Shown here in pieces: positions 7,764 to 63,404 of a DNA stretch of 64,000 nt. The position numbers were made by a program, and so were the translations under genes. Source of the stretch: Bathymodiolus japonicus methanotrophic gill symbiont (GTDB lineage Bacteria > Pseudomonadota > Gammaproteobacteria > Methylococcales > Methylomonadaceae); NCBI RefSeq assembly GCF_019721995.1, contig NZ_BLYC01000006.1, forward strand, positions 124,001 through 188,000, read 5' to 3'. The notes beneath the pieces are model-generated. The model was not told the origin of the DNA. It did no database searches and saw only the letters and a program-made list of their open reading frames with translations. Within the stretch, counting starts at the first letter, position 1. Each line of letters starts with the position of its first letter.

Positions 7764-8023
7764 CGCTGTCAGCCCCGGACGGGCTGATAGTCTCCAGAAG
7801 GCGCAGGGAAATTTGCCAATCCGAAGTGCGCGATAGCGCGCGAGGGAGGCTAAAATTTTATCCCGAATAGCCGTAGAGCCATTTGTGGTAGCCATGACTG
7901 AGCTGCTTTGTGCTCAGTCTGTGGCGGACGCAGGGCGGCTGGAGCATCTCCTATTCGCTGCGTAGGTGAACGAATTACGGCGACAGGAGTCCCGGAATTT
8001 CGTGAGGTAGCATGGCGCGCCTG
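7764..8023 (+). repeat. SPE-B element
   Basis: 260-bp structured element starting CGCTGTCAGCC and ending GCGCGCCTG. Removing it restores TTTCAAT|GTTTTCAGC exactly as in the uninterrupted ISc copy at 40.4 kb; no target duplication. Antisense to the transposase gene. Confidence 0.92.
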
Positions 8024-8377
8024 GTTTTCAGCATGACAACGCGACTATAAGCCCTGACTTCACGCTGTTTTCCATAGAGATTCACGGTATACGATCGGGC
8101 CTTTTGTTGTACTGTTTTTGCCATGTCTGTGGCTGACCCCAGACGCTGCCCGTACTTTTTATTCCGCCCCCTCTGCTTGGGTTTTCTTTTTTCTGGACGA
8201 TCGTACAGTACATTATTGCACCTTAACCTAGAGAGAATATTAAACCGGCTTCCGATAGTTTTGTAAACAGGCTTCCATAGGCCATTGTTGCCAAACCAGC
8301 TATCAGTGACTGTCAATATCGGAGCGGTGGAAAAATGTTCTGCAATTGCAATCAGCATTTGAGCCGCCTGAGTCATC

Positions 8378-8672
8378 CGCTGAAAATCCTGGAAACGGAG
8401 CTTTAGCGAAGTGAAGATTTTTAGTCCGCGATAGCCGTAGGGCCGTTGTTTTTTCGGAGTCTGAGCGTTAGCGAAGGTGGAGACAAAATAAAAGGCCATC
8501 CGACACGGCGTCAAGTCATTTGGAGCCTATGTTCCGACCCCTTGTTGGGTCGGGACGAGGTGACGAGGACGAATCGGGGCCGCCGGAGGCATAAGTGGTC
8601 GCGTTAAGTTTTTGCTGCTTGCTTGGGCTGGGATGCCCAAAACAAGCTTTCGCAAAAATAGCGACTCCCCGA
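8378..8672 (+). repeat. SPE-C element
   Basis: 295-bp element starting CGCTGAAAATCC and ending CTCCCCGA, with a strong central hairpin around CCGACCCC...GGGTCGG. The flanks join as GCCATC|TTGGTC in the ISc consensus (one T reads G here); no target duplication. Confidence 0.9.
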
Positions 8673-8698
8673 GTGGTCTGGAAAGGAAGGACTTCCCC

Positions 8699-8978
8699 CG
8701 CTGAAAATCATGGAAACGGAGCTTAGCGAAGTGGTGATTTTTAGTCCCTGATAGGCGACAGGGCAATTCGCTGATTCGACGTGTGCTAGCAGCACGCGAG
8801 AGGAGCAAGAATTGCATTCCGAATAGCCGTCCAGCCAGTGAGGAAGTAATGACGAAGCGACTTTTGTGCGTAGTCGTTGCGGACGCAGGGCGCTCAGGGC
8901 ATCTCCCATCCGCTGCGTAGGTGAACGAATTATGGCGACAGGAGTCCCGGAATTTCGTGAGGTAGCATGGCGCGCCTG
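8699..8978 (+). repeat. SPE-A element at an ISc / M48-peptidase junction
   Basis: 280-bp element, CGCTGAAAATCATGG to GCGCGCCTG. Left flank is ISc, right flank is M48 peptidase coding sequence, so this insertion marks a rearrangement rather than a simple insertion. Confidence 0.92.
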
Positions 8979-9644
8979 TCTAGCCAGTGTCGTGTCTGGT
9001 ACAGGGTCACTGCTTAACTCTGCAATTCTTGCGCCTTATAACCGAGAGCAGGAAAATGATGCAGATGCGATAGGGCAGTTACTTGCTATTAAAGCCGGCT
9101 GGAATCCAGATGGTATTACCCATTTTCTTAGCACGCTCGCTGAAGATCATGGAAACGTAGCTTAGCGAAGTGGTGATTTTTAGTCCCTGATAGGCGACAG
9201 GGCAATTCGCTGATTCGACGTGTGCTAGCAGCACGCGAGAGGAGCAAGAATTGGATTCCGAATAGCCGTCCAGCCAGTGAGGTAGTAATGACGAAGCGGC
9301 TTTTGTGCGTAGTCGTTGCGGACGCAGGGCGTTCAGGGCATCTCCCATCCGCTGCGTAGGTGAACGAATTATGGCGACAGGAGTCCCGGAATTTCGTGAG
9401 GTAGCATGGCGCGCCTGAGATCGCGAAACTGCCCGGAAAGGGGAAGAGGAGGAGTTCGCTTTTCTTGCGACGCACCCGTCTACACCTAAGCGAGTTAAAG
9501 CCACTGAAACAAGAGCGGCTGAGCTTAAAGCGGATGGCAGTATCAGTCAGCAAAAAAACTCAGCGGTCAAAAATCATAAGGCTTTTCTGAGCATGCTTAA
9601 TGGCTTAATTGTCGGTGCAGATGTTAAACAAGGTATTTTTATTA
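8979..9644 (+). pseudogene. M48-family metallopeptidase fragment, interrupted by SPE-A
   Basis: Two pieces, 8979-9137 and 9418-9644, encode the middle of a periplasmic M48 (BepA/LoiP-like) zinc protease. The third zinc ligand region REQENDADAIGQ and the later GEEEEFAFLATHPSTPKRV are clear; the HEXXH part is missing because the gene is cut at 8979. Deleting the SPE-A at 9138-9417 rejoins ACGCT|AGATCGC in frame as FLSTLDRETARKG. The 3' side is cut by ISa. It cannot be functional and is cargo of the composite transposon. Confidence 0.85.
9138..9417 (+). repeat. SPE-A element inside M48 gene
   Basis: 280 bp, CGCTGAAGATC to GCGCGCCTG, in the same orientation as the gene. Exact removal restores the M48 reading frame with no duplicated or lost base visible. 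Confidence 0.92.
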
Positions 9645-11175: not shown

Positions 11176-11180
11176 TTATA

Positions 11181-11438
11181 CGCTGCGGTATAAGAGCCAT
11201 TATGTTCGGCAAATGAAATAATAAGCGCATCACACGCGCTAATTTTAGCAAAAAACTCCTGAGCCAGTTTAGGCTGCCCAAGCTCTTCCTCTTTACCCAC
11301 ACTAAACAAGGGCAGTTCATAGTCATTTAAGTCCAGCACTTCAACCTGCGCAGCTTCAATTAAGCTAGCTGCATAGGTCACCAATTGTTTATTTATCGAT
11401 TGCTTACTATTACTCGCAGCAAATGCTAGAACTTTCAT
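11181..11438 (-). pseudogene. NADPH-dependent FMN reductase, N-terminal half
   Basis: N-terminal half of the flavoprotein whose other half is at 6882-7148. It shows the phosphate-binding start MKVLAFAASNSKQSINKQL and the flavodoxin-fold motif LPLFS...ISFAEHNGSYTAA (the N-G-S-Y/I flavin-contact segment). A good ribosome-binding site (AGGAGA) precedes the ATG. The last native codons run into the ISa end. Confidence 0.88.
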
Positions 11439-11611
11439 TCTTTCTCCTATGAATTATTTGATCTGTATAACCACTCATATTATCAAAATCCAGGAGCTTT
11501 ATTGTGAATTTAATAATGCGATGGTAGTTGACAAGAGCATGCTCGGGGTATTTTGAAATTTGCCTTGCAGAAGCAGACAAAAAAGGATGATCTATAACTG
11601 TGTTAGATAAA
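11439..11611. other. AT-rich intergenic stretch, no confident gene
   Basis: Contains the ribosome-binding site of the FMN reductase. Short open frames exist on both strands across the MITE2 target; none has a start, ribosome-binding site and recognisable product. Confidence 0.4.
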
Positions 11612-16859: not shown

Positions 16860-17139
16860 CAGGCGCGCCATGCTACCTCACGAAATTCCGGGACTCCTGT
16901 CGCCATAATTCGTTCACCTACGCAGCGGATGGGAGATGCCCTGAACGCCCTGCGTCCGCAACGACTACGCACAAAAGCCGCTTCGTCATTACTACCTCAC
17001 TGGCTGGACGGCTATTCGGAATGCAATTCTTGCTCCTCTCGCGTGCTGCTAGCACACGTCGAATCAGCGAATTGCCCTGTCGCCTATCAGGGACTAAAAA
17101 TCACCACTTCGCTAAGCTCCGTTTCCATGATTTTCAGCG
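16860..17139 (-). repeat. SPE-A element in envC
   Basis: 280 bp, reverse orientation. Exact removal joins GAC|AAT in frame (AQIKKD|NERQIKQL). Confidence 0.92.
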
Positions 17140-21725: not shown

Positions 21726-22005
21726 CAGGCGCGCCATGCTACCTCACGAAATTCTGGGACTCCTTTCGCCATAATTCGTTCACCTACGCAGCGGATGGGA
21801 GATGCCCTGAACGCCCTGCGTCCGCAACGACTACGCACAAAAGCCACTTCGTCATTACTACCTCACTGGCTGGACGGCTATTCGGAATGCAATTCTTGCT
21901 CCTCTCGCGTGCTGCTAGCACACGTCGAATCAGCGAATTGCCCTGTCGCCTATCAGGGGCTGAAAATCACCACTTCGCTAAGCTCCGTTTCCATGATTTT
22001 CAGCG
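21726..22005 (-). repeat. SPE-A element, intergenic
   Basis: 280 bp, CAGGCGCGCC to TTTTCAGCG in reverse orientation, between cspA and a small membrane-protein gene; flanks TATCTA and TAGGCA show no duplication. Confidence 0.92.
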
Positions 22006-23720: not shown

Positions 23721-23980
23721 CGCTGTCAGCCCCGGACGGGCTGATAGTCTCCAGAAGGCGCAGGGAAATTTGCCAATCCGAAGTGCGCGATAGCGCGCGA
23801 GGGAGGCTAAAATTTTATCCCGAATAGCCGTAGAGCCATTTGTGGTAGCCATGACTGAGCTGCTTTGTGCTCAGTCTGTGGCGGACGCAGGGCGGCTGGA
23901 GCATCTCCTATTCGCTGCGTAGGTGAACGAATTACGGCGACAGGAGTCCCGGAATTTCGTGAGGTAGCATGGCGCGCCTG
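23721..23980 (+). repeat. SPE-B element in ISb
   Basis: 260 bp; joined flanks CTTTCCCC|TTGCTG equal the uninterrupted ISb at 61.8 kb. Identical target position to the SPE-C at 49355. Confidence 0.93.
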
Positions 23981-24275
23981 TTGCTGTTTTTTTCAGTATG
24001 GCAGGCATGATCAATAAAATGTCCATCCGCTGCTTCTATGGTGTATTCGTCAAGTTCCGGGAATGCTTTAAGATAATCAATGCCTTGCGATAGCAGTGTT
24101 TCAGCGTGAAGATGATAGCTCTGCTGTTCAAATGCCTCAAGCATACTTGTTCGTCTATGAGACTTCAGTGATTTAAAATACGTTGAGTGGGGAAGCAGCT
24201 GGCCATAAATCTGTTCATTGGTTTGGAGGAAATGGCGACCACTATCGACTACACTGATATAGCGTAATAACCCAA

Positions 24276-24555
24276 CAGGCGCGCCATGCTACCTCACGAA
24301 ATTCTGGGACTCCTGTCGCCATAATTCGTTCACCTACGCAGCGGATGGGAGATGCCCTGAACGCCCTGCGTCCGCAACGACTACGCACAAAAGCCGCTTC
24401 GTCATTACTACCTCACTGGCTGGACGGCTATTCGGAATGCAATTCTTGCTCCTCTCGCGTGCTGCTAGCACACGTCGAATCAGCGAATTGCCCTGTCGCC
24501 TATCAGGGACTAAAAATCACCACTTCGCTAAGCTCCGTTTCCATGATTTTCAGCG
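24276..24555 (-). repeat. SPE-A element replacing part of ISb
   Basis: 280 bp. Left flank AACCCAA and right flank TTTGAAATT are both ISb but about 210 bp apart in intact copies, so target DNA was lost. Confidence 0.9.
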
Positions 24556-28681: not shown

Positions 28682-30137
28682 ATGCTTAAAGACCTACCAC
28701 TCTCTGAACATATTCACCAACACTGCAATGAAAGTATGGAACGTGCCCTGTTAGCAGAGCGTCATCCTTTGTGGGCTCGTTCATGCCCAGAGTTGAAGGA
28801 TATCGACTTTATTCGCCTTGGGTTATTACGCTGTATCAGTGTAGTCGATAGTGGTCGCCATTTCCTCCAAACCAATGAACAGATTTATAGCCAGCTGCTT
28901 CCCCACTCAACGTATTTTAAATCACTGAAGTCGCATAGACGAACAAGTATGCTTGAGGCATTTGAACAGCAAAGCTATCATCTTCACGCTGAAACACTGC
29001 TATCGCAAGGCATTGATTATCTTAAAGCATTCCCGGAACTTGACGAATACACCATAGAAGCAGCGGATGGTCATTTTATTGATCATGCCTGCCATACTGA
29101 AAAAAACAGCAAGGGGAAAGTTTATGCGGCCGGGGGGATTTACGCGTTGAATCTCAGAAGTGGGTTGCTCAGATTTCTTTGTCTGGTGACAAACGGAACT
29201 CAGAGGCATCAAGAAATACCTGTGTTACGAGATCATATTGAAAAGCAAAACAAGGGAAATAACAGCTCTCAGAAACATCTCTATGTCTACGATAAAGCCG
29301 TCACCGACTTTGTCTGGTGGGATCGGCAGAAACGACATGCTAATTACATGATTTCAATGCTAAAAGAAAATTCAATTGCGACTCTGGTTGAGTCTATCCC
29401 TTTTGACTCCCGCCATGAGATCAATACAGGGGTTGAAGCATACAGTGTGTACGAAAACAAGGGCATCAAATTTAACGTGGTGGATTACCGTGATCCAGAA
29501 ACCGGAAAACTTCACCGGTTTGTGACAACCTTGCCAATGACTATTAACCCTGGAACCATTGTCATGCTGTATTTCAAGCGATGGACGATTGAAAAGACAT
29601 TCAATAACACTAAAACTCGATGTTCAAGTTTTCAGCTATAACTGGGCTAAGAAAAGTAAATTTTTCCGGCTTTGTTTTATAAGTGATTGATTTACAATGA
29701 TGTTGATGCTTTCTTTGTCAGTAAAATTATCAATAAAATCAATCGGTTAAAAAACTTGAACATCGAGTAAAAGTAATTTCAAGGAAACTAAAGCTTGGTC
29801 TTCCAATACCCGCTCACTTGAAAATCAAATGCGCCTGACTGCAATGAGCTATAATTTAATGCGCGTGTTTGAAGAGAGTTCAAAAACACAACAGCCAGAA
29901 TTGATTCATCCATCGGATAAAAAATATAGCGAGGCTCTGGAGATAAGGCAGCAACAGGCTCAAAAACGAGATCGTTTTGTGAATCCATTATTTTTCCAGG
30001 CAAGAATATCTCGTATCAGCTCGTATACCATTCGGGCAGTTCAAAACGCAATAATAACAGGAATGTCTTTACAGTGCTTTATGAGCTCTCTTGTGGCGAG
30101 GTTAGTTTCACGGCCTCAATTGATAGGGGAACACTGA
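28682..30137 (+). pseudogene. ISb transposase (IS4 family), split by MITE1
   Basis: Starts MLKDLPLSEHIHQ. Pieces 28682-29615 and 29773-30137 join at one TAAAA copy into a single frame carrying the aspartates in AADGHFIDHA and VYDKAVTDFVWWD and the IS4 signature YFKRWTIEKTF|NNTK. Apart from the MITE it looks undamaged. Confidence 0.88.
29616..29767. mobile_element. MITE1 copy in ISb, TSD TAAAA
   Basis: 152 bp; TAAAA at 29611-29615 and 29768-29772. Confidence 0.93.
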
Positions 30138-30261: not shown

Positions 30262-30521
30262 CAGGCGCGCCATGCTACCTCACGAAATTCCGGGACTCCT
30301 GTCGCCGTAATTCGTTCACCTACGCAGCGAATAGGAGATGCTCCAGCCGCCCTGCGTCCGCCACAGACTGAGCACAAAGCAGCTCAGTCATGGCTACCAC
30401 AAATGGCTCTACGGCTATTCGGGATAAAATTTTAGCCTCCCTCGCGCGCTATCGCGCACTTCGGATTGGCAAATTTCCCTGCGCCTTCTGGAGACTATCA
30501 GCCCGTCCGGGGCTGACAGCG
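30262..30521 (-). repeat. SPE-B element in GT4 gene
   Basis: 260 bp, same orientation as the gene. Exact removal restores DSASIFLRY in frame with no duplicated base. Confidence 0.93.
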
Positions 30522-30643: not shown

Positions 30644-30934
30644 CGCTTAAAATCAGGGAAACGGAGCCTAAGCGGAGTGATGATTTTTAGTCTCTGGTAG
30701 GCGACAGGGCAATTCGCTGATCCGAAGTGCGCTAGTAGCGCGCGAGGGAGGCAAGAATTGCATTCCGAATAGCCGTCCAGCCATTTGAGGTAGACTTAAC
30801 TGAGCAGGGTTTTGTGCGTAGTTGAGTAGTTGAGACGGACGCAGGGCGACCAGGGCATCTCCCATTCGCTGCGTAGGCGAATGAATGTTGGTGACAGGAG
30901 TCCCAGAATGTTGTGAGGTAGCATGGCGCGCCTG
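30644..30934 (+). repeat. SPE-A' element (IS66 passenger)
   Basis: 291 bp, CGCTTAAAATCAGGG to GCGCGCCTG; a diverged A subfamily. Empty-site sequence at 22784-22816 shows insertion between CAGCGTA and AATAATT without duplication. Confidence 0.92.
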
Positions 30935-31179: not shown

Positions 31180-32884
31180 TTGAAAATAGACTTCATCGAT
31201 GTTGATTCCGCAATCAGTCATGCCAAACAGTTACTTGAAACTGAGCGTGATATATCGCCTGCGCTAAAATCAGCACTGGAAGTGATTCTATTATTAGTCA
31301 CGGTATTACTCAATCGAGTGACACTGAACAGCAAAAATAGCAGTAAACCACCTGCAAGTGACCCCAACCGTAAAAAAGGGAATCGAAAAAAATCAGATAA
31401 GCCTTCTGGCGGACAAAAATCGCATGTCGGCACGACACTTCAAAAAATAGATGACCCGGATGAAATCGAGATCATTACCATTGATCGCCGTACCTTGCCA
31501 AAAGGGCGATACACGGCAGATGGCTTTGAAACACGCCAGGTATTCGATATTGATATCTCAAGGGTAGTGACAGAATACCAGGCGCAACGGTTGATAAATG
31601 GAAAAGGTCAGTGTTTTATCGCTCCTTTTCCAGATGAGGTTACTAAGGCTGCGCAATATGGTAATGGGATAAAAGCCCATGTGGTTTATCTTTCGCAATA
31701 TCAGTTATTGCCCTACAACCGAATACAGGAGTATTTCGCTGATCAATTAGGTATGCCGATTAGTGAAGGCTCTATCTATAATTTCAATGAACTGGCCTAT
31801 GAGAAGTTGGCTGGGTTTGAAACTATCAGTAAAGAACACTTAGTCGAATCAGCGTGCATTCATGCGGATGAAACAGGCATTAATATTATCGGGGAGTCGC
31901 TATTTTTGCGAAAGCTTGTTTTGGGCATCCCAGCCCAAGCAAGCAGCAAAAACTTAACGCGACCACTTATGCCTCCGGCGGCCCCGATTCGTCCTCGTCA
32001 CCTCGTCCCGACCCAACAAGGGGTCGGAACATAGGCTCCAAATGACTTGACGCCGTGTCGGATGGCCTTTTATTTTGTCTCCACCTTCGCTAACGCTCAG
32101 ACTCCGACAAAACAACGGCCCTACGGCTATCGCGGACTAAAAATCTTCACTTCGCTTAGGCTACGTTTCCCTGATTTTCAGCGATGGTAAGCGCCATTGG
32201 CTACATGGGGCCTCCAATGTTCAGTGGACACACTTCTTTCCCCATGCCAAACGTGGCACAGAGGCAATGAATGACATTGGTATTTTACCCCATTTTCATG
32301 GGATTTTATGTCATGATCATTGGAAGCCATACTATAAATATGATTGTACTCATTCGCTTTGTAATGCACATCATTTGAGGGAATTAACGCGCGCCTGGGA
32401 GCAGGATAAACAGGAGTGGGCGCTTGAAATGAAACGACTACTTGAAAAAATGAATGATGCCGTCAATGAAGCAGGTGGCATGCTACTACATAAAGAAGCA
32501 GAAAAATGGAAGGTACAATACAGAGAATTACTTGGCAAAGCGGAGATCGAATGCCCACCACCCGATAAGCCTAAAGAAGTAAAACGGGAGCGAATAAAAC
32601 GCAGTAAAGCTAGAAACTTACTGGAAAGGCTGATTAATTATGAAGAGGATGTCTTGCGCTTCATGACAAATACCTGGGTGCCATTTACCAATAATGCCGC
32701 AGAAAATTCGATTCGGATGACCAAGGTTCAACAGAAAATATCCGGCTGCTTTCGTAGTACCAAGGGTGCAGAGATATTTTGTCGTGTCAGAGGGTATTTA
32801 TCAACGTGCCGTAAACAAGGTCTAAGTGCAACTCAGGCAATGACCTTGGTCTTTGAGGGAAAGTTACCTGAATTTTCTTTATAA
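31180..32884 (+). pseudogene. IS66-family transposase interrupted by SPE-C
   Basis: TTG start, MKIDFIDVDSAISHAKQLL. N-terminal coiled region, SSKPPASDPNRKKGNRKKS basic linker, catalytic HADETGI (split), CNAHHLREL and the terminal [18 protein letters not shown]. Removing 31889-32183 restores AATATTA|ATGGTAAGC as in copy 2 and an open frame of about 470 codons. Confidence 0.88.
31889..32183 (-). repeat. SPE-C element in IS66 transposase
   Basis: 295 bp, TCGGGGAGTCGC to TTTTCAGCG in reverse. Direct comparison with the uninterrupted copy at 43083-43096 proves a scarless insertion. Confidence 0.95.
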
Positions 32885-35713: not shown

Positions 35714-37446
35714 CTGAAGTTTCCTAGTTTTTAAAACATAAGAATATCAGCTAATGCTTATTTTTCTGAAATATTAGATATTGCTAATATTAATGACATT
35801 CCGTTGACTAAAAGCCTTGAATTCTTTTTAAAAACAACAGGTTAATCGTGAATGAGGCCTAGTTTTAGTGTATAATGAAAGTTTCTAACACATTGATTAT
35901 ACAAATAAAACGACCTCATTCATGTTCATTTTACGCGATATTTTACTCCCGCTCCAAGATCATTTTTCCGAAACCACTTTAGGCCGCGAACGAGCCTCTC
36001 TGTTTGTTTACACGATCCTGTCTATTATCGTTCCTTTTACGTCATCAATGACCTCTAATCTTTGGCGTTGCCTTGATACGTTGTTTGGGTTTGAGATCAA
36101 GAATAAGCGCTTTTACACTTTCATTGCTTCTTCAACTTTGCCGTGGGCTGGGCTGTGGAAAACTATCTGGGAGCTGATTCCGTCTCCTGAAACAGATGGG
36201 CGCATATTGGTTGCACTGGATGACTCCATTATCACTAAAGTAGGCAAAAATATCTTCGGCTGTGAAGCCATTTTTGACCACGCGGCCAAATCGAATCAAA
36301 GCAAATATCCATGGGCACAAAACATTGTATCGGTAGGGTTGCTGAAACAGGTCAAAGGTCGCTGGGCGTGCCTATTTTTAGATTTCCGATTTTATCTACC
36401 CTTAAAAACAATTCAGGCAAAAAAAGAAATCGCCACGATAAGAGGGGAAGTCGTTCCTTTCCAGACCAAGATGGCTCAGGCGGCTCAAATGCTGATTGCA
36501 ATTGCAGAACATTTTTCCACCGCTCCGATATTGACAGTCACTGATAGCTGGTTTGGCAACAATGGCCTATGGAAGCCTGTTTACAAAGCTACAGGCGCGG
36601 CCATGCTACCTCACGAAATTCCGGGACTCCTGTCGCCATAATTCGTTCACCTACGCAGCGGATGGGAGATACCCTGAACGCCCTGCGTCCGCAACGACTA
36701 CGCACAAAAGCCGCTTCGTCATTACTACCTCACTGGCTGGACGGCTATTCGGAATGCAATTCTTGCTCCTCTCGCGTGCTGCTAGCACACGTCGAATCAG
36801 CGAATTGCCCTGTCGCCTATCAGGGACTAAAAATCACCACTTCGCTAAGCTCCGTTTCCATGATTTTCAGCGGGGGTCAGCCACAGACATGGCAAAAACA
36901 GTACAACAAAAGGCCCGGTCGTATACCGTGAATCTCTATGGAAAACAGCGTGAAGTCAGGGCTTATAGTCGGGTTGTCATGCTGAAAACATTGAAACGAC
37001 CCGTTCAGGTTGTCTGGGTGTTTCGTCGCACACAGTGGATTGCTTTGTTTACGACCGATCTAAGTTTATCCGTCACACAGATTATTGAGTATTATGGTGC
37101 GCGATGGAAAATCGAATCCGGGTTCAAAGAGCTCAAGCAAGACATAGGGAGTCAGAAAAGTCAGTGTCGAAATGCGCAGGCAGTGACCAACCATTTGAAC
37201 TTCTGTATGATGGCAACAACGCTGACGTGGATTTACGCGGATCGTTTAAAAACCGATCCGGAACGTCGGCACAAAGTGAAGGGGCGAGCCAGTTTCGCCT
37301 TTTCAGATATCCGCCGCATCATTGCCGAAGCGGCTTTGGATCCGGATTTTGAAAGGGTTTGCTCCAAATACAGCAGCTCCCCTGTAAATTCGGTGGTAGC
37401 CGTTTTATTGCGAATGGTTGCTTGATGAATTTCTAAGAAACTTCAG
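35714..37446 (+). mobile_element. ISc copy 2 (IS4-type) with SPE-A replacing transposase segment
   Basis: Ends CTGAAGTTTCCTAG and AGAAACTTCAG. The transposase (from ATG 35922, MFILRDILLPLQDHF) has VALDDSIITKVG (first Asp) and YYGARWKIESGFKELK. SPE-A at 36592-36872 lies between AAAGCTA and GGGGTCAGCC, which are about 118 bp apart in ISc copy 4, so that piece was lost. Confidence 0.9.
36592..36872 (-). repeat. SPE-A element in ISc transposase, with target loss
   Basis: 281 bp (one extra G near the start). Replaces about 118 bp of ISc. Confidence 0.9.
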
Positions 37447-37505: not shown

Positions 37506-37800
37506 CGCTGAAAATCCTGGAAACGGAGCTTTAGCGAAGTGAAGATTTTTAGTCCGCGATAGCCGTAGGGCCGTTGTTTTTTCGGAGTCTGAGCGTTAGC
37601 GAAGGTGGAGACAAAATAAAAGGCCATCCGACACGGCGTCAAGTCATTTGGAGCCTATGTTCCGACCCCTTGTTGGGTCGGGACGAGGTGACGAGGACGA
37701 ATCGGGGCCGCCGGAGGCATAAGTGGTCGCGTTAAGTTTTTGCTGCTTGCTTGGGCTGGGATGCCCAAAACAAGCTTTCGCAAAAATAGCGACTCCCCAA
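37506..37800 (+). repeat. SPE-C element at the 3' break of the nucleoside hydrolase gene
   Basis: 295 bp, last two bases AA instead of GA. On its left is non-hydrolase sequence, so the hydrolase 3' end is missing. Confidence 0.88.
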
Positions 37801-38354: not shown

Positions 38355-38614
38355 CGCTGTCAGCCCCGGACGGGCTGATAGTCTCCAGAAGGCGCAGGGA
38401 AATTTGCCAATCCGAAGTGCGCGATAGCGCGCGAGGGAGGCTAAAATTTTATCCCGAATAGCCGTAGAGCCATTTGTGGTAGCCATGACTGAGCTGCTTT
38501 GTGCTCAGTCTGTGGCGGACGCAGGGCGGCTGGAGCATCTCCTATTCGCTGCGTAGGTGAACGAATTACGGCGACAGGAGTCCCGGAATTTCGTGAGGTA
38601 GCATGGCGCGCCTG
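38355..38614 (+). repeat. SPE-B element in nucleoside hydrolase gene
   Basis: 260 bp, antisense; scarless between codons GCA and GAT. Confidence 0.93.
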
Positions 38615-38721: not shown

Positions 38722-39001
38722 CGCTGAAAATCATGGAAACGTAGCTTAGCGAAGTGGTGATTTTTAGCCCCTGATAGGCGACAGGGCAATTCGCTGATTC
38801 GACGTGTGCTAGCAGCACGCGAGAGGAGCAAGAATTGCATTCCGAATAGCCGTCCAGCCAGTGAGGTAGTAATGACGAAGCGGCTTTTGTGCGTAGTCGT
38901 TGCGGACGCAGGGCGTTCAGGGCATCTCCCATCCGCTGCGTAGGTGAACGAATTATGGCGACAGGAGTCCCGGAATTTCGTGAGGTAGCATGGCGCGCCT
39001 G
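38722..39001 (+). repeat. SPE-A element in nucleoside hydrolase signal-peptide region
   Basis: 280 bp, antisense; scarless join TTAG|CATGTAAG keeps the frame. Confidence 0.93.
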
Positions 39002-39959: not shown

Positions 39960-41818
39960 CTGAAGTTTCTTAGAAATTCATCAAGGAACCATTCGCAATA
40001 AAACGGCTACCACCGAATTTACAGGGGAGCTGCTGTATTTGGGGCAAACCCTTTCAAAATCCGGATCCAAAGCCGCTTCGGCAATGATGCGGCGGATATC
40101 TGAAAAGGCGAAACTGGCTCGCCCCTTCACTTTGTGCCGACGTTCCGGATCGGTTTTTAAACGATCCGCGTAAATCCACGTCAGCGTTGTTGCCATCATA
40201 CAGAAGTTCAAATGGTTGGTCACTGCCTGCGCATTTCGACACTGACTTTTCTGATTCCCTATGTCTTGCTTGAGCTCTTTGAACCCGGATTCGATTTTCC
40301 ATCGCGCACCATAATACTCAATAATCTGTGTGACGGATAAACTTAGATCGGTCGTAAACAAAGCAATCCACTGTGTGCGACGAAACACCCAGACAACCTG
40401 AACGGGTCGTTTCAATGTTTTCAGCATGACAACGCGACTATAAGCCCTGACTTCACGCTGTTTTCCATAGAGATTCACGGTATACGATCGGGCCTTTTGT
40501 TGTACTGTTTTTGCCATGTCTGTGGCTGACCCCAGGCGCTGCCCGTACTTTTTATTCCGCCCCCTCTGCTTGGGTTTTCTTTTTTCTGGACGATCGTACA
40601 GTACATTATTGCACCTTAACCTAGAGAGAATATTAAACCGGCTTCCGATAGCTTTGTAAGCAGGCTTCCATAGGCCATTGTTGCCAAACCAGCTATCAGT
40701 GACTGTTAATATCGGAGCGGTGGAAAAATGTTCTGCAATTGCAATCAGCATTTGAGCCGCCTGAGCCATCTTGGTCTGGAAAGGAGCGACATCACCCGCT
40801 GAAAATCAGGGAAACGGAGCTTTAGCGAAGTGAAGATTTTTAGTCCGCGATAGCCGTAGGGCCGTTGTTTTGTCGGAGTCTGAGCGTTAGCGAAGGTGGA
40901 GACAAAATAAAAGGCCATCCGACACGGCGTCAAGTCATTTGGAGCCTATGTTCCGACCCCTTGTTGGGTCGGGACGAGGTGACGAGGACGAATCGGGGCC
41001 GCCGGAGGCATAAGTGGTCGCGTTAAGTTTTTGCTGCTTGCTTGGGCTGGGATGCCCAAAACAAGCTTTCGCAATAAATAAGCGACTCCCGATCTTATCG
41101 TGGGCGGTTTCTTTTTTTGCCTGAATTGTTTTTAAAGGGCAGATAAAATCGGAAAATCTAAAAAATAAAGCAGCACAGGCGACTTTGACCTGTTTCAGCA
41201 ACCTTACCGATACAAGAATTTTGTGCCCATGGATATTTGCTTTGATTTCGATGGGCAGCGTGGTCAAAACTGGCTTCACAGCCGACAAGATATTTTTGCC
41301 TTACTTAGTGATATGGAGGTCATACAGTGCAACCAATATGCGGCCCAATCTGTTGTCGGAACGGAATCCAGTCCCAGATAGTTTCCCACAGCCCAAGGCC
41401 ACGCAAAGTTGAAGAAGCCATGAAAGTGTTAAAAGCGCTTATTTCTTGATCTCCACCCAAACAACGTATCAGTGAACGCCAAAGATTAGAGGTTCATTGA
41501 TGGACGTAAAAGGAACGATAATGACAGGATCGTGTAAACGAAAGAGAGGCCGTTCGCGGCCTAAAGTGGTTTCGGAAAAATGATATTGAAGCGGGAGTAA
41601 AAATATTCGCGTAAAATGAACATTGAATGAGGTCATTTTACTTGTATAATCAATGTGTTATAAAACTTTTCATTATACAGTAAAACTAGGCCTCATTCAC
41701 GATAAACCTGTTGTTTTTAAAAAGAATGCAAGGCTTTTAGTCAACGGAACGCCATTAATATCTAATAAAAATAGGCATTAGCTGATATTCCTATGCTTTA
41801 AAAACTAGGAAACTTCAG
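39960..41818 (-). mobile_element. ISc copy 3, degenerate, carrying SPE-C
   Basis: Both CTGAAGTTTC ends present. The 3' two-thirds of the transposase (39981-40769) is close to other copies and has YYGARWKIESGFKELK; the 5' third (beyond SPE-C at 40797-41092) has frameshifts and substitutions. Confidence 0.88.
40797..41092 (+). repeat. SPE-C element in ISc copy 3
   Basis: 296 bp with small end changes (CTCCCGA). Flanks join as CATCACC|TCTTATCG, the sequence of the uninterrupted copy 4. Confidence 0.92.
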
Positions 41819-41846: not shown

Positions 41847-42137
41847 CGCTTAAAATCAGGGAAACGGAGCCTAAGCGGAGTGATGATTTTTAGTCTCTGG
41901 TAGGCGACAGGGCAATTCGCTGATCCGAAGTGCGCTAGTAGCGCGCGAGGGAGGCAAGAATTGCATTCCGAATAGCCGTCCAGCCATTTGAGGTAGACTT
42001 AACTGAGCAGGGTTTTGTGCGTAGTTGAGTAGTTGAGACGGACGCAGGGCGACCAGGGCATCTCCCATTCGCTGCGTAGGCGAATGAATGTTGGTGACAG
42101 GAGTCCCAGAATGTTGTGAGGTAGCATGGCGCGCCTG
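41847..42137 (+). repeat. SPE-A' element (IS66 passenger)
   Basis: 291 bp, essentially identical to 30644-30934 and at the same position in the element. Confidence 0.93.
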
Positions 42138-44289: not shown

Positions 44290-44426
44290 TTATTGGTAAA
44301 CCCTGAATTCAAGTCATAAGTACATAACCCAATAAATTTTTCATATCTATCCCAGTCAGCTCTTCAAATACCTCATAAGGTGCTTTGTAATTGAGACACT
44401 TTTTAGGGCGACTATTTAGCTTATCA

Positions 44427-44578
44427 CTCGATGTTCAAGTTTTCAGCTATAACTGGGCTAAGAAAAGTAAATTTTTCCGGCTTTGTTTTATAAGTGATTG
44501 ATTTACAATGATGTTGATGCTTTCTTTGTCAGTAAAATTATCAATAAAATCAATCAGTTAAAAAACTTGAACATCGAG
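44427..44578. mobile_element. MITE1 copy in IS30, TSD TATCA
   Basis: 152 bp; TATCA at 44422-44426 and 44579-44583. Confidence 0.93.
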
Positions 44579-45009
44579 TATCAACGGCTATAAAAACCTC
44601 TTTTATCGTAACATCAATCAACTCCATTACTTTAGGGAAATACTGTCTTAATAAGCCATTAGCATTCTCATTTTGCCCTCTTTCCCAAGAGCTGTATGGA
44701 GTCGAAAAATACGTATCACAACCTAGTGCTTCTGCTATTTTTTCATGCAGGGTAAACTCTTTCCCGTTATCAAAAGTAATTGTTTTAACAAAGCTTTTTA
44801 TAGGATCAAGCATTAAAATAGTTGCGTCTAATACATATTGAGCCTTTTTCCCCGCTAAAGGGAAGGCCAACCGTAATTTAGAGACTCGCTCATCCAACGT
44901 TACAATCGCCCCTTTGTGATTTTTCCCAATGATTGTATCTGCCTCCCAATCACCTATACGCTTACGGTTGTTGACCTCTTCAGGACGCTCATCTATATCG
45001 ACTCTATTA

Positions 45010-46215: not shown

Positions 46216-46510
46216 CGCTGAAAATCCTGGAAACGGAGCTTTAGCGAAGTGATGATTTTTAGTCCGCGATAGCCGTAGGGCCGTTGTTTTGTCGGAGTCT
46301 GAGCGTTAGGGAAGGTGGAGACAAAATAAAAGGCCATCCGACACGGCGTCAAGTCATTTGGAGCCTATGTTCCGACCCCTTGTTGGGTCGGGACGAGGTG
46401 ACGAGGACGAATCGGGGCCGCCGGAGGCATAAGTGGTCGCGTTAAGTTTTTGCTGCTTGCTTGGGCTGGGATGCCCAAAACAAGCTTTCGCAAAAATAGC
46501 GACTCCCCGA
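46216..46510 (+). repeat. SPE-C element in IS1595 transposase
   Basis: 295 bp, antisense; removal joins AATGC|AATGACA in frame. Confidence 0.93.
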
Positions 46511-46820: not shown

Positions 46821-47080
46821 CGCTGTCAGCCCCGGAAGGGCTGATAGTCTCCAGAAGGCGCAGGGAAATTTGCCAATCCGAAGTGCGCGATAGCGCGCGA
46901 GGGAGGCTAAAATTTTGTCCCGAATAGCCGTAGAGCCATTTGTGGTAGCCATGACTGAGCTGCTTTGTGCTCAGTCTGTGGCGGACGCAGGGCGGCTGGA
47001 GCATCTCCTATTCGCTGCGTAGGTGAACGAATTACGGCGACAGGAGTCCCGGAATTTCGTGAGGTAGCATGGCGCGCCTG
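46821..47080 (+). repeat. SPE-B element in IS1595 transposase
   Basis: 260 bp, antisense; removal joins GGCGGG|GCGGCAAA in frame. Confidence 0.93.
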
Positions 47081-47821: not shown

Positions 47822-48349
47822 ATGAAATTGTCGCTTATTGTCGCCATGGCGACTAATCGTACTATCGGCATTAATAATCAAATGCCCTGGCACTTATCTG
47901 CTGATCTTAAGAAATTTAAGCAGATCACTATGGGTCAGCCGATTATTATGGGACGTAAAACCTTTGAATCTATTGGTCGCCCTTTGCCCGGCCGGCAAAA
48001 TATCATTATCAGCCGTGCCCCACATTATCAACAAGCAGACTGCCTGGTTTTTAATGATCTGGATAGCGCTTTACAAAACTGTGCGAATAAAGCTGAAGTC
48101 TTTGTGATCGGGGGAGCAACTTTGTATGCAGCAACCTTGGCACGAGCAAATAGGCTGTATATTACCGAAATCAAGCAGAACTTTGATGGCGATACCTGGT
48201 TTCCCGAGATTAACCCCGAACTATGGCAAGAAGTAGCACGCGAAGATATTAATGATGATAACAGTGTTGATTTTGCCTACAGCTTTATTGTTTACGAAAA
48301 CAGGCGCGCCATGCTACCTCACGAAATTCCGGGGCTCCTGTCGCCATAA
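47822..48349 (+). CDS. folA: dihydrofolate reductase with SPE-derived C-terminal tail
   Basis: Reduces dihydrofolate to tetrahydrofolate with NADPH. Starts MKLSLIVAMATNRTIGINNQMPWHLSADLKKFK; the active-site acidic residue follows the W of MPWH in LSADLK, GRKTFESIGRPLPGR and VIGGATLYAATL bind NADPH, and YITEI, DTWFPEI are conserved. The native frame reaches FAYSFIVYEN, within a few residues of the usual end, then reads 15 codons of reverse SPE-A (RRAMLPHEIPGLLSP) to a stop. The fold is complete, so activity is likely. The native 3' end is not found beyond the composite insertion. Confidence 0.92.
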   Translation: MKLSLIVAMATNRTIGINNQMPWHLSADLKKFKQITMGQPIIMGRKTFESIGRPLPGRQNIIISRAPHYQQADCLVFNDLDSALQNCANKAEVFVIGGATLYAATLARANRLYITEIKQNFDGDTWFPEINPELWQEVAREDINDDNSVDFAYSFIVYENRRAMLPHEIPGLLSP

Positions 48350-48529
48350 TTCGTCACCTACGCAGCGGATGGGAGATGCCCTGAACGCCCTGCGTCCGCA
48401 ACGACTACGCACAAAAGCCGCTTCGTCATTACTACCTCACTGGCTGGACGGCTATTCGGAATGCAATTCTTGCTCCTCTCGCGTGCTGCTAGCACACGTC
48501 GAGTCAGCGAATTGCCCTGTCGCCTATCA
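48301..48529 (-). repeat. SPE-A element at folA 3' end, first part
   Basis: First 229 bp of a reverse SPE-A; the remaining 50 bp are at 54699-54748. The two halves share TATCA and are separated by the composite transposon. Confidence 0.92.
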
Positions 48530-48681
48530 CTCGATGTTCAAGTTTTCAGCTATAACTGGGCTAAGAAAAGTAAATTTTTCCGGCTTTGTTTTATAAGTGA
48601 TTGATTTACAATGATGTTGATGCTTTCTTTGTCAGTAAAATTATCAATAAAATCAATCAGTTAAAAAACTTGAACATCGAG

Positions 48682-48860
48682 TATTAATATGTAGGCTTAG
48701 GTCTTTCGCTGGTGCCGCGTTGAGCCTGATGGAATGCTCCGCCCAATAAAGTGAGTTTATAGTAAACATCAAAGCAGAAGTCAGATAATAATACTGCAAA
48801 AGAATTGATTACAGCGCTGATTTTACTACTTCTTTTTTAAAAAGCTGGAATGTTAGAAAT
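48682..48860. other. non-coding remnant inside composite 2
   Basis: About 180 bp of unique sequence between MITE1 and MITE2; nothing recognised. Confidence 0.4.
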
Positions 48861-49354: not shown

Positions 49355-49649
49355 CGCTGAAAATCCTGGAAACGGAGCTTTAGCGAAGTGAAGATTTTTA
49401 GTCCGCGATAGCCGTAGGGCCGTTGTTTTGTCGGAGTCTGAGCGTTAGCGAAGGTGGAGACAAAATAAAAGGCCATCCGACACGGCGTCAAGTCATTTGG
49501 AGCCTATGTTCCGACCCCTTGTTGGGTCGGGACGAGGTGACGAGGACGAATCGGGGCCGCCGGAGGCATAAGTGGTCGCGTTAAGTTTTTGCTGCTTGCT
49601 TGGGCTGGGATGCCCAAAACAAGCTTTCGCAAAAATAGCGACTCCCCGA
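49355..49649 (+). repeat. SPE-C element in ISb, same target base as SPE-B of copy 1
   Basis: 295 bp; scarless between CTTTCCCC and TTGCTG. Confidence 0.94.
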
Positions 49650-49960
49650 TTGCTGTTTTTTTCAGTATGGCAGGCATGATCAATAAAATGTCCATCCGCT
49701 GCTTCTATGGTGTATTCGTCAAGTTCCGGGAATGCTTTAAGATAATCAATGCCTTGCGATAGCAGTGTTTCAGCGTGAAGATGATAGCTCTGCTGTTCAA
49801 ATGCCTCAAGCATACTTGTTCGTCTATGCGACTTCAGTGATTTAAAATACGTTGAGTGGGGAAGCAGCTGGCCATAAATCTGTTCATTGGTTTGGAGGAA
49901 ATGGCGACCACTATCGACTACACTGATACAGCCGCTGAAAATCATGGAAACGGAGCTTAG

Positions 49961-50539
49961 CCCATCTTCGTCACTTTCATCTTTCTAAGCCATTGATTCA
50001 TCGGTTTAAGCGATTTTTTGTCGAAAAATTCTCTTTAAAATCAATCGCTGTCAGCCCCGGACGGGCTGATAGTCTCCAGAAGGCGCAGGGAAATTTGCCA
50101 ATCCGAAGTGCGCGATAGCGCGCGAGGGAGGCTAAAATTTTATCCCGAATAGCCGTAGAGCCATTTGTGGTAGCCATGACTGAGCTGCTTTGTGCTCAGT
50201 CTGTGGCGGACGCAGGGCGGCTGGAGCATCTCCTATTCGCTGCGTAGGTGAACGAATTACGGCGACAGGAGTCCCGGAATTTCGTGAGGTAGCATGGCGC
50301 GCCTGGGTGTTTTTTTTGAAAGTTTTGTAGTGCCATTTATATTATTTCTGTCGATAAATTCATTGACTTTTGTCAAAAAAATCATCATTATTTGAGTGTA
50401 ATTTACATGCGACAAAAATACTCTAAAAAATCCACCGTTTTATACAAAAACACAAAATCTGTAGTGCCAACTGGCTACTTTTTAAAATTTCAACCAATTG
50501 ATTTATAACAACTACATCATCAATAGTGACGAAGATGGG
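49961..50539. mobile_element. MITE3, non-autonomous relative of IS1634 element, carrying SPE-B
   Basis: 579 bp with inverted ends CCCATCTTCGTCAC, close to the IS1634 ends at 52502 and 54610, and the same TTAG duplication. No transposase. 260 bp of it is the SPE-B at 50046-50305. Confidence 0.88.
50046..50305 (+). repeat. SPE-B element inside MITE3
   Basis: 260 bp, CGCTGTCAGCC to GCGCGCCTG; flanks AAAATCAAT and GGTGTTTT. Confidence 0.92.
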
Positions 50540-51093
50540 TTAGCGAAGTGGTGATTTTTAGTCCCTGATAGGCGACAGGGCAATTCGCTGATTCGACGTG
50601 TGCTAGCAGCACGCGAGAGGAGCAAGAATTGCATTCCGAATAGCCGTCCAGCCAGTGAGGTAGTAATGACGAAGCGGCTTTTGTGCGTAGTCGTTGCGGA
50701 CGCAGGGCGTTCAGGGCATCTCCCATCCGCTGCGTAGGTGAACGAATTATGGCGACAGGAGTCCCGGAATTTCGTGAGGTAGCATGGCGCGCCTGGTTGG
50801 TGAATATGTTCAGAGAGTGGTAGGTCTTTAAGCATGGGTGATATCCGTTTATGAGGTGATTAAAACGAAAATTTTTTCGGCAATTGCAAGCTTTATTTGA
50901 AATTATTTGTTGTTTTTTTTACGGTGCCTACAGAGTGTCTATTTGCTGTTATAAGTGATTAAAATCAAAAAGATGGAAATATTCGATTGGTGCTAGCTTC
51001 AGGTAGGTTATAGGCTGCTTTGTTTAGGTACTTCTTCTTTCAATGGGAACACTGATGCCTACTGTACCAATGTATGCATCGGTTCCTTTATAA

Positions 51094-54610: not shown

Positions 54611-54698
54611 TTAGGGCCAACAGCATCATTAAAGTATTGTTCTGCTGGGTGAAGGTAAGAGTTTGATGGCAATGGGATGGAAAAACTTGAACATCGAG

Positions 54699-54748
54699 TA
54701 TCAGGGACTAAAAATCACCACTTCGCTAAGCTCCGTTTCCATGATTTT
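54699..54748 (-). repeat. SPE-A element, second part (partner of 48301-48529)
   Basis: TATCAGGGACTAAAAATC to CATGATTTTC; lacks the last AGCG. Followed by a 25-bp ISb end relic. Confidence 0.9.
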
Positions 54749-54769
54749 CCATCAGTGTTCCCATTGAAA

Positions 54770-58724: not shown

Positions 58725-58727
58725 ACG

Positions 58728-58868: not shown

Positions 58869-58896
58869 ATAGCGAGGTACAGCTTAAGCGCTTAAC

Positions 58897-59637: not shown

Positions 59638-59643
59638 AGTCAC

Positions 59644-59755
59644 CCCCCCAAGGGTAATTTATAGTTTTTGTATGAATATCACAACAAATTGTATCGTTCA
59701 CACAACATTTTGTAACACGGTAGAAAGGATAGCAGTAAACTTTGCCCCTTACAAG
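59644..59755 (-). promoter_or_regulatory. upstream region of outer-membrane protein gene
   Basis: 112 bases between the start and ISc; AT-rich with a purine-rich ribosome-binding site next to the gene. The promoter is likely here but not pinned down. Confidence 0.4.
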
Positions 59756-59962
59756 CTGAAGTTTCATAGTTTTTAAAGCATAAGAATATCAGCGAATGCT
59801 TATTTTTCTGAAATATTGGTATTACTAATATTAATGGCATTCCGTTGACTAAAAGCCTTGAATTCTTTTTAAAAACAACAGGTTAATCGTGAATGAGGCC
59901 TAGTTTTACTGTATAATGAAAGTTTATAACACATTGATTATACAAATAAAACGACCTCATTC

Positions 59963-61463
59963 ATGTTTATTTTACGCGATATTTCACTCCCGCTTCAAGA
60001 TCATTTTTCCGAAACCACTTTAGGCCGCGAACGAGCCTCTCTGTTCGTTTACACGATCCTGTCCATTATCGTTCCTTTTACGTCATCAATGACCTCTAAT
60101 CTTTGGCGTTGCCTTGATACGTTGTTTGGGTTTGAGATCAAGAATAAGCGCTTTTACACTTTCATGGCTTCTTCAACTTTGCCGTGGGCTGGGCTGTGGA
60201 AAACTATCTGGGAGCTGATTCCGTCTCCTGAAACAGATGGGCGCATATTGGTTGCACTGGATGACTCCATTATCACTAAAGTAGGCAAAAATATCTTCGG
60301 CTGTGAAGCCATTTTTGACCACGCGGCCAAATCGAATCAAAGCAAATATCCATGGGCACAAAATATTGTATCGGTAAGGTTGCTGAAACAGGTCAAAGGT
60401 CGCTGTGCGTGCTTATTTTTAGATTTCCGATTTTATCTGCCCTTAAAAACAATTCAGGCAAAAAAAGAAACCGCCACGATAAGAGGTGATGTCGTTCCTT
60501 TCCTGACCAAGATGGCTCAGGCGGCTCAAATGCTGATTGCAATTGCAATTGCAGAACATTTTTCCACCGCTCCGATATTGACAGTCACTGATACTCGATG
60601 TTCAAGTTTTCAGCTATAACTGGGCTAAGAAAAGTAAATTTTTCCGGCTTTGTTTTATAAGTGATTGATTTACAATGATGTTGATGCTTTCTTTGTCAGT
60701 AAAATTATCAATAAAATCAATCAGTTAAAAAACTTGAACATCGAGTGATAGCTGGTTTGGCAACAATGGCCTATGGAAGCCTGTTTACAAAGCTATCGGA
60801 AGCCGGTTTAATATTCTCTCTAGGTTAAGGTGCAATAATGTACTGTACGATCGTCCAGAAAAAAGAAAACCCAAGCAGAGGGGGCGGAATAAAAAGTACG
60901 GGCAGCGTCTGGGGTCAGCCACAGACATGGCAAAAACAGTACAACAAAAGGCCCGATCGTATACCGTGAATCTCTATGGAAAACAGCGTGAAGTCAGGGC
61001 TTATAGTCGCGTTGTCATGCTGAAAACATTGAAACGACCCGTTCAGGTTGTCTGGGTGTTTCATCGCACACAGTGGATTGCTTTGTTTACGACCGATCTA
61101 AGTTTATCCGTCACACAGATTATTGAGTATTATGGTGCGCGATGGAAAATCGAATCCGGGCTCAAAGAGCTCAAGCAAGACATAGGGAGTCAGAAAAGTC
61201 AGTGTCGAAATGCGCAGGCAGTGACCAACCATTTGAACTTCTGTATGATGGCAACAACGCTGACGTGGATTTACGCGGATCGTTTAAAAACCGATCCGGA
61301 ACGTCGGCACAAAGTGAAGGGGCGAGCCAGTTTCGCCTTTTCAGATATCCGCCGCATCATTGCCGAAGCGGCTTTGGAACCGGATTTTGAAAGGGTTTGC
61401 CCCAAATACAGCAGCTCCCCTGTAAATTCGGTGGTAGCCGTTTTATTGCGAATGGTTGCTTGA
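59963..61463 (+). pseudogene. ISc transposase (IS4 family), split by MITE1
   Basis: MFILRDISLPLQDHF start, ILVALDDSIITKVGKN with the first aspartate, TAPILTVTDS|WFGNNG with the second (the bar marks the MITE1), and YYGARWKIESGLKELK. Six extra bases duplicate IA near IAIAIAEHF. Removing the MITE at one TGATA copy gives a continuous frame. Confidence 0.88.
60595..60746. mobile_element. MITE1 copy in ISc, TSD TGATA
   Basis: 152 bp; TGATA on both sides. Confidence 0.93.
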
Positions 61464-61484
61464 TGAATTTCTAAGAAACTTCAG

Positions 61485-62446
61485 TTCGTACACACTGTAT
61501 GCTTCAACCCCTGTATTGATCTCATGGCGGGAGTCAAAATGGATAGACTCAACCAGAGTCGCAATTGAATTTTCTTTTAGCATTGAAATCATGTAATTAG
61601 CATGTCGTTTCTGCCGATCCCACCAGACAAAGTCGGTGACGGCTTTATCGTAGACATAGAGATGTTTCTGAGAGCTGTTATTTCCCTTGTTTTGCTTTTC
61701 AATATGATCTCGTAACACAGGTATTTCTTGATGTCTCTGAGTTCCGTTTGTCACCAGACAAAGAAATATGAGCAACCCACTTCTGAGATTCAACGCGTAA
61801 ATCCCTCCGGACGCATAAACTTTCCCCTTGCTGTTTTTTTCAGTATGGCAGGCATGATCAATAAAATTTCCATCCGCTGCTTCTATGGTGTATTCGTCAA
61901 GTTCTGGGAATGCTTTAATATAATCAATGCCTTGCGATAGCAGTGTTTCAGAGTGAAGATGGTAGCTCTGCTGTTCAAATGCCTCAAGCATACTTGTTCG
62001 TCTATGCGACTTCAGTGATTTAAAATACGTTGAGTGGGGAAGCAGCTGGCCATAAATCTGTTCATTGGTTTGGAGGAAATGGCGACCACTATCGACTACA
62101 CTGATACAGCGTAATAACCCAAGGCGAATAAAGTCGATATCCTTCAACTCTGGGCATGAACGAGCCCACAAAGGATGACGCTCTGCTAACAGGGCACGTT
62201 CCATACTTTCATTGCAGTGTTGGTGAATATGTTCAGAGAGTGGTAGGTCTTTAAGCATGGGTGATATCCGTTTATGAGGTGATTAAAACGGAAATTTTTA
62301 GAAAAATCTTTTCGGCAAATGCCAGCTTTATTTGAAATTATTTGTTGTTTTTTTACGGTGCCTACAGAGTGTCTATTTGCTGTTATAAGTGATTAAAATC
62401 AAAAAGATGAAAATATTCGAGTGGTGCTACCTTCAGGTAGGTTATA
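61485..62446 (-). pseudogene. ISb copy 4, 3'-truncated by ISc
   Basis: Transposase from ATG 62258 leftward, uninterrupted until the ISc junction at EAYSVYE. It carries the uninterrupted form of the SPE-B/SPE-C target (CTTTCCCCTTGCTG near 61825). The outer end is cut by ISa at 62447. Confidence 0.9.
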
Positions 62447-63404
62447 CTCGATGTTCAAGTTTTTCCATCCCATTGCCATCAAACTCTTACCTTCACCCAG
62501 CAGAACAATACTTTAATGATGGTGTTGGCCCTAAGCGCCCTAAATCTCTGCCAATCATATGTTTTCCTGATGGCATCAGTTGAAACACATCCTTTATTAA
62601 TTCACCTAACTCTTTCAGCTTATCACCAGGATCTGGAAACTCTAGCAATGACGTGATGAACTCAAGCAGTACATCCATTTGAGACTTGCGCTGTAAGCTT
62701 CCTACGGTATACGCAGGTAGTTTGCTTTCAATGCGGGCTATTTGCTCTGGGTGAAGGAGAAGGCAATGGTCAAACAAAAGACTCAGAATCAGGCCTCGGG
62801 GAGTCGCTATTTTTGCGAAAGCTTGTTTTGGGCATCCCAGCCCAAGCAAGCGGCAAAAACTTAACGCGACCACTTATGCCTCCGGCGGCCCCGATTCGTC
62901 CTCGTCACCTCGTCCCGACCCAACAAGGGGTCGGAACATAGGCTCCAAATGACTTGACGCCGTGTCGGATGGCCTTTTATTTTGTCTCCACCTTCGCTAA
63001 CGCTCAGACTCCGACAAAACAACGGCCCTACGGCTATCGCGGACTAAAAATCATCACTTCGCTTAGGCTCCGTTTCCCTGATTTTCAGCGACGGCTTGAT
63101 CCCTCTTCATCTAATTGTTTGGCCTCACGCCCCCATCCTTCATTAAAGCTTCCAGTCCTCAAAGAAAACCTCAATCAGCCATCTCAACGTATAGGCTTGA
63201 ATAATATCTTGTGTGCGCCAAGTCAGGTCTGTCGCCACTAAATAGCGATAGTCGTTTTCACCGTCATATTTTAAGGCAATGACAAAGCGTTTTTTTACTG
63301 TGAGAACTCACCTTTAATCGTGCACTGCTGACAGTCACTTTAATCTCTTTTCCGCCACGTACACGTATTATCTGATCAATGCCTTTGTTAATCGAATTAA
63401 AGTA
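62447..63404 (-). pseudogene. ISa copy 5, 5'-truncated by IS30, carrying SPE-C
   Basis: Right end and the C-terminal half of the ISa transposase in reverse; SPE-C at 62796-63090 interrupts it, small indels near 63144 and 63290 shift the frame, and IS30 begins at 63405. Confidence 0.88.
62796..63090 (-). repeat. SPE-C element in ISa
   Basis: 295 bp; the flanks AGGCC|ACGG join as in ISa copy 2 (near 18190); same orientation as the gene. Confidence 0.93.

Follow-up and report, generated by a model that had tools for sequence, protein, structure and literature searches.

Short structured mobile elements of a methanotrophic gill symbiont insert without target duplication, three bases after a conserved C

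The 64,000-nucleotide stretch of DNA analysed here, which we call the window, is part of the 4.97-Mb genome (109 contigs; G000 in our numbering of genomes) of the methanotrophic gill symbiont of Bathymodiolus japonicus, and it is crowded with copies of a short structured element to which the name SPE is given. These repeats are real and mobile. They enter host DNA by exact joins that duplicate nothing, nearly always three bases downstream of a C, and their predicted fold shows compensatory changes in methanotrophs and in more distant Gammaproteobacteria. With moderate confidence, we regard the SPEs as non-autonomous elements with a conserved folded strand, which would be moved as single-stranded DNA by an HUH-type Y1 transposase acting in trans, in the manner of the IS200/IS605 and REP/RAYT systems.

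The window contains 22 full-length copies, namely six of type A (260 nt), seven of A' (280-281 nt), two of A'' (291 nt), and seven of C (295-296 nt), and the types measured overall span 260-309 nt. Three further copies are incomplete (a 5'-truncated A', an interrupted A', and a 51-nt end piece), and a covariance model built from 34 sequences returns 26 matches, in line with the estimate of about 24 copies made in the first-pass annotation of this DNA. Its description of a common start and two forms of end is equally sound: the full copies begin with CGCTG or CGCTT and finish in GCGCGCCTG (once with an extra C ahead), or in CTCCCCGA or a close variant of it, the small end variants being those of the copies at 37506 and 40797. 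No terminal inverted repeats were seen. Stop-free stretches reach at most 57 codons in type A, 93 in A', 88 in A'', and 60 in C, and no long reading frame is common to these four window types, in agreement with the earlier view of the SPEs as structured and non-coding elements without a credible protein. A 'type B', formerly placed at 23981-24275, was rejected, since this segment is host insertion sequence (IS) DNA only.

A sample of 845.8 kb from this genome, which includes the window, has 294 SPE matches, 223 of them full length, and they account for 8.6% of its bases. The sample is non-random, made up of contigs already known to have SPE hits plus three short pieces around Y1 genes. On the 340 kb of contig C1, its longest uninterrupted piece, the density is 33 per 100 kb, and on the others it is 21 to 70; scaled up, this would give, by extrapolation, about 1,700 copies per genome.

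The absence of target duplication was followed at empty sites. The flanks of 218 insertion sites, some of them repeated (one ISb site occurs five times), were joined, and an uninterrupted counterpart was sought in the 845.8-kb sample. A counterpart was found for 94 of the 218 sites, and in 87 of these 94 the best copy was free of insertions and deletions within 15 nt of the junction; the remaining seven include, among those listed, alignments that are incomplete or of low quality and one case (40797) in which the end of the element is shifted. Within the window, the sites listed with empty copies are those at 7764, 8378, 23721, 31889, 40797, 49355, 50046, and 62796, and seven of these eight are gap-free, the gap at 40797 having been traced by eye to an altered element end. 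Eight SPE copies interrupted by an SPE alone are consistent with the same exact joining, the overlap being 0 in six of them and 1 nt and 4 nt in the other two. In these two, the gap falls short of the length of the inserted element by the very same 1 and 4 nt, so that the overlaps are best taken as chance matches with the element end. The 4-nt overlap was also considered as a true duplication and rejected, as the join reads exact. The overlap test is able to reveal duplications, since an unrelated 313-nt repeat in the same sample gave a 5-nt overlap at three places. Thus, the claim that insertion duplicates nothing, together with the argument against ordinary DDE transposition drawn from it, is borne out, and no consistent short duplication was seen at the sampled empty sites.

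The flanks were previously described as having no shared motif or target property, and this must be corrected. The fourth base before the insertion (position -4) is a C in all 22 full copies of the window and at 207 of 210 unique sites of the symbiont genome, where it amounts to 2.06 bits over a background of 22% C. At the same unique sites, the share of C falls to 0.05 at -5 and that of G to 0.04 at -1, no other target position exceeds 0.21 bits, and the bases on the right-hand side stay at or below 0.06 bits, with similar values for the A, A', and C types; no specific tetra- or pentanucleotide was found there, the C at -4 being the sole fixed base. The rule extends to 62 of 62 copies located by their 5'-end pattern in named genomes, and to 41 of 42 copies of Methylotuvimicrobium buryatense 5G (G027) and G008, a genome of the same genus as the symbiont, some of the M. 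buryatense copies being also among the 62. Among 22 distant matches from the class-wide search, 17 have the C, and the five that miss it have differing 5' ends, which suggests that the start given by the model is probably misplaced there. The by-eye check of left flanks returned one copy without the C, a mosaic (locus L090). Three host sites were hit at the identical base by two different SPE types, so preferences beyond the C probably exist.

The last four bases of the SPEs likewise begin with C, reading CCTG in the A types, CCGA in C, and CTTG in type D of M. buryatense. The left flank and the right end hence share a cleavage-type motif, C-NNN, as IS200/IS605 elements do. Since target and 3' end obey the same rule, the former exclusion of an IS200/IS605-like mechanism for want of a fixed tetranucleotide was too strong, and this shared rule is what would be expected if a single Y1-type enzyme cuts both the target and the end of the element.

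The second property that unites the family is its predicted fold. RNAalifold pairs 90 positions in 16 C-like sequences, 51 of these pairs being changed on both sides, and in the 5' half common to the A and C types, compensatory changes occur in 12 of 21 pairs. Compensatory changes of this strength indicate that the two types derive from one ancestral fold and that this fold is under selection. An alignment of 48 distinct rows, which combines window copies with sequences of other methanotrophs and of 22 loci from the class-wide search, has a covariation score of 0.509; shuffled versions give 0.175 and slid partners 0.055-0.086. This alignment was fitted to the model and is biased towards it. 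Outside the first helix, which itself contains two mostly G-U positions, G-U cells (69) are far above A-C cells (8), and this points to the top strand as the strand kept folded. When folded as RNA, the top strand has z-scores of -3.15 in C, -4.46 in A, and -6.32 in D, and the bottom strand, in C, one of -1.95. The prediction for the C group places one hairpin right at the left terminus and another, a long one, so that it ends about 6 nt short of the right terminus. No Rfam family, HEARO and the intron core and domain V included, reached its gathering score in the window, and two matches obtained in 1.8 kb at a relaxed cut-off lay far below it; neither Rfam nor the open-access literature searched provided a name for the family.

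The orientation of the copies tends to follow replication in the symbiont genome. GC skew is the conventional guide to the leading strand, and of 206 unique sites, after 52 in low-skew stretches were set aside, 122 copies run along the leading (positive-skew) strand and 32 against it (p=1.4e-13; 154 sites). Copies within genes and copies between them show this bias to a similar degree, and it does not track the direction of transcription. Relative to genes, 31 copies are sense, 60 antisense, and 128 unassigned; gene direction was tried as the basis of orientation and rejected, as replication direction explains the data better once 13 repeated sites are removed and the sites are split by skew. 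The support for a replication-strand bias comes from this one genome only.

The full copies of type A in the window lie at 7764..8023 (+), 23721..23980 (+), 30262..30521 (-), 38355..38614 (+), 46821..47080 (+), and 50046..50305 (+). Those of A' are found at 8699..8978 (+), 9138..9417 (+), 16860..17139 (-), 21726..22005 (-), 24276..24555 (-), 36592..36872 (-), and 38722..39001 (+). The two A'' copies, at 30644..30934 (+) and 41847..42137 (+), have identical flanks, so the latter was probably copied along with host sequence. Type C occupies 8378..8672 (+), 31889..32183 (-), 37506..37800 (+; end variant CTCCCCAA), 40797..41092 (+; end variant CTCCCGA), 46216..46510 (+), 49355..49649 (+), and 62796..63090 (-). 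The C copy at 49355 and the A copy at 23721 sit in ISb at the identical base. An A' copy at 48301..48529 (-) is without its 5' end, and another is split into a 5' piece (49933..49961, +) and a 3' piece (50540..50795, +). What splits it is a copy of the 313-nt repeat (49962-50045 and 50306-50539), which has inverted ends (CCCATCTTCGTCACT), leaves the 5-nt overlap, and is in turn interrupted by the A copy at 50046..50305. The end piece, at 54699..54749 (-; covariance model match 54678-54757), is a solo 5' hairpin, and solo copies of about 49 nt also occur in other loci (L088 near 3001, L143 near 3109, and L145 near 5830), these three with the C at -4. They are REP-like, and they may have a mobility of their own or be deletion products.

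A direct-repeat search of the whole window (1-64000) gave 22 families of at least 120 nt, as this DNA is very repetitive. A repeat family of 166 nt, with the look of a miniature inverted-repeat transposable element (MITE), occurs at 7141-7306, 29608-29773, 44419-44584, 48522-48687, and 60586-60751, its first copy bearing the inverted ends ACTCGATGTTCAAGTTTT.

Beyond the symbiont, a DNA search with A' gave matches in 22 of the 61 genomes that make up the relative set, the symbiont's own counted, and the covariance model matches 30 of 274 genomes and 26 of 222 genera of the class Gammaproteobacteria, in a search that accepted E-values up to 1e-5 and used filters that lose weak matches. The hosts named among the matches listed include M. 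buryatense 5G, which has 36 matches, Methylomonas species, a Crenothrix assembly, and Bathymodiolus gill symbionts. Type C is present in four plasmid records of methanotrophs, three of the matches lying under no annotated feature and the fourth in an unannotated record, and a distant type is present in two plasmid records; the same distant type gave no match in the E. coli genomes and phage records searched. The 5'-end pattern picked out two IMG/VR contigs. The one that was read (L258) carries an SPE-like element at about 420-710, with the C at -4, and viruses of this kind would be a possible vehicle between hosts.

The pathway that we favour would start with an enzyme that recognises the hairpins predicted at the ends of the SPE. 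Its cut would fall three bases after the C, in the target (C-NNN^) as well as in the 3' end of the element (CCTG^, CCGA^, or CTTG^), and the top strand would then join single-stranded DNA, preferentially on the lagging-strand template, as the GC-skew bias of the one genome suggests. The joining, being exact as observed, would form no target duplication, and the inner part of the fold may serve the enzyme or act as RNA. Taken together, the exact joins, the motif shared by target and 3' end, the predicted terminal hairpins, and the strand bias are better fitted by a Y1 enzyme in trans than by the other mechanisms tested, and it is from these features that we infer the carrier to be Y1.

Enzyme domains were searched for Y1, TnpB, IscB-like proteins, and reverse transcriptase. 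A Y1 match is present in 22 of 22 SPE-bearing and 34 of 39 SPE-free genomes of the relative set. Several results weigh against a Y1 carrier. Class-wide, Y1 is found in 25 of 30 genomes with SPEs and in 161 of the 244 without (p=0.06). A genome with four weak SPE matches (G203) has no Y1 match, as is also the case of G152, G298, and G312 (one SPE match each) and G292 (two). No Y1 gene bearing SPE ends was seen in 45 of 50 loci, the other five overlapping them, and no tnpA-bearing element sharing SPE ends turned up in these 45 loci or among the interrupted copies of the 846 kb. SPE matches near Y1 were confined to loci of G000, G006, and G008 among the 45, and the Y1 genes retrieved from M. buryatense, G028, and G009 have no SPE match closer than about 1.5 kb. 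The strand bias is non-significant in the relatives (16:10 in M. buryatense, with three unassigned, and 8:5 in G008). Known IS200/IS605 elements conserve four or five target bases and the SPE one, and conservation of the whole interior is unexpected for a plain REP or PATE. A full-length RAYT-like frame of 222 aa in the symbiont genome (L040, contig C5, about 60.4-61.1 kb), which scores 65.2 against REP_Tyr_transpos (cut-off 80), is flanked by an inverted repeat of its own (AAAGGGGACG), differing from the SPE.

M. buryatense has four Y1 matches, none of which scores like the IS200 transposases of its relatives. Y1 gene pieces beside divergent SPEs on contigs C29 and C3 of the symbiont were considered as an autonomous element and are read instead as decayed IS200-type remnants, which adjoin SPEs or are interrupted by them. 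TnpB (PF07282) and the IscB-like RRXRR domain (PF14239) each occur in one of eight SPE-bearing genomes, own genome in neither case, and reverse transcriptase (RVT_1) in six of eight, G028 and G022 having no match; this patchy occurrence argues against any of the three as a general partner. Reverse transcriptase genes beside partial SPEs in M. buryatense, which could have been the missing enzyme, belong to group II introns inserted in the SPE. Three copies were read (L177, L183, and L188), each an intron of about 1.9 kb with a GTGTG start, a domain-V-like sequence, and a reverse transcriptase frame of 444 aa, placed between nt 16 and 17 of SPE-D (16|17); a fourth, near 2,259 kb, was judged from coordinates only. 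Here the SPE, itself mobile and multi-copy, serves the intron as its home.

The SPEs resemble two groups of Y1-moved elements. REP and REPIN elements are also short, non-coding, present in high copy number, and built on hairpins, and REPs are moved in trans by a Y1 enzyme, RAYT, whose natural cleavage sites are given as CT or CA (PMC8266576); RAYT-like genes occur in three SPE hosts (G000, M. buryatense, and G009). However, REPs measure 21-65 nt (PMC6006769). They have a GTAG tag before their 5' hairpin, whereas CGCTG precedes a variable 5' hairpin in the SPEs. Unlike REPs, the SPEs have a conserved structured interior and insert in genes and IS elements, and no RAYT-like gene was seen with an SPE beside it, the examined loci of the three hosts giving no SPE model match. 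PATEs and Y1 MITEs are non-autonomous derivatives of IS200/IS605. With these derivatives the SPEs share the lack of terminal inverted repeats and of duplication, hairpins near the ends (predicted in the SPE), a left-flank motif that recurs in form at the right end, and a lagging-strand bias (in the SPE, for own genome only). They differ in having one fixed target base rather than four or five, a hairpin that begins with the first bases and has no spacer ahead of it, an internal fold kept across a class, and, within the DNA searched, no autonomous relative. The SPE may work like an IS200/IS605 derivative or like a REPIN, membership in neither being established by the criteria tested.

The conserved interior and the RNA-like wobble pattern keep an RNA-level mechanism in play, in which a structured transcript would move and a ribonucleoprotein would insert it into DNA, either with a reverse transcriptase supplied in trans or by ribozyme chemistry. 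We hold this as a tentative alternative. A covarying structure that spans the entire element, the excess of G-U over A-C together with the two mostly G-U positions of helix 1, and the lower z-scores of the top strand all speak for it, and exact, duplication-free insertion would fit intron-like chemistry as well. Group I and II introns do share exact insertion and RNA-like structure with the SPEs, but the window has no Rfam intron match, the target is nearly free, and the copies lie in both gene directions with no sense bias, unlike a splicing intron, which is mainly sense. Moreover, two of the eight SPE-bearing genomes are without a reverse transcriptase match, no Rfam family reached its gathering score in the window, and such a mechanism does not predict a C at -4 common to target and 3' end. 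In the furthest form of this idea, which we consider possible but doubtful, the SPEs would be the first described gammaproteobacterial class of mobile elements with a complete structured RNA of about 300 nt as the moving or guiding species, inserted by a trans-acting DNA-joining enzyme three bases after almost any accessible C, and with the fold, rather than a protein gene or terminal repeats, as the heritable core.

Other explanations are less probable than either a Y1 carrier or an RNA intermediate. A tyrosine or serine recombinase acting on folded single-stranded DNA, as in the movement of integron cassettes, would account for predicted folded ends and exact joins; however, integron cassettes are cut after the G of a G-TT core, whereas G is almost excluded at -1 and the two sides of the SPE have no common core, which makes this unlikely. 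More improbable still are the SPEs as guide RNA elements of TnpB, IscB, or IsrB nucleases, kept by the cutting of empty sites. Like HEARO and the omega RNAs of IscB and IsrB, they are structured, mobile, sometimes geneless, and about 300 nt long, with a target motif on one side, but this motif is on the left flank and not the right, the window gave no Rfam match, and the nuclease domains are as rare as described above. Finally, short multi-copy elements in an IS-rich genome invite the idea of an ordinary DDE-transposase MITE with decayed duplications. This is scarcely credible, as near-identical copies yield exact empty sites, which already refutes it, terminal inverted repeats were not seen, and the MITE-like 313-nt repeat of the same data does show its 5-nt overlap.

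If the account given here is true, M. buryatense 5G could serve as a laboratory host for finding the enzyme of the SPEs, and their nearly free choice of target would be of interest for DNA-writing tools. One mobile family, unified by its single-base target rule and its conserved fold, would then account for about 9% of the DNA sampled from this symbiont as well as for unannotated stretches in other Gammaproteobacteria, and a tiny, geneless, non-coding element would be able to attain, by extrapolation, well over a thousand copies in a genome.

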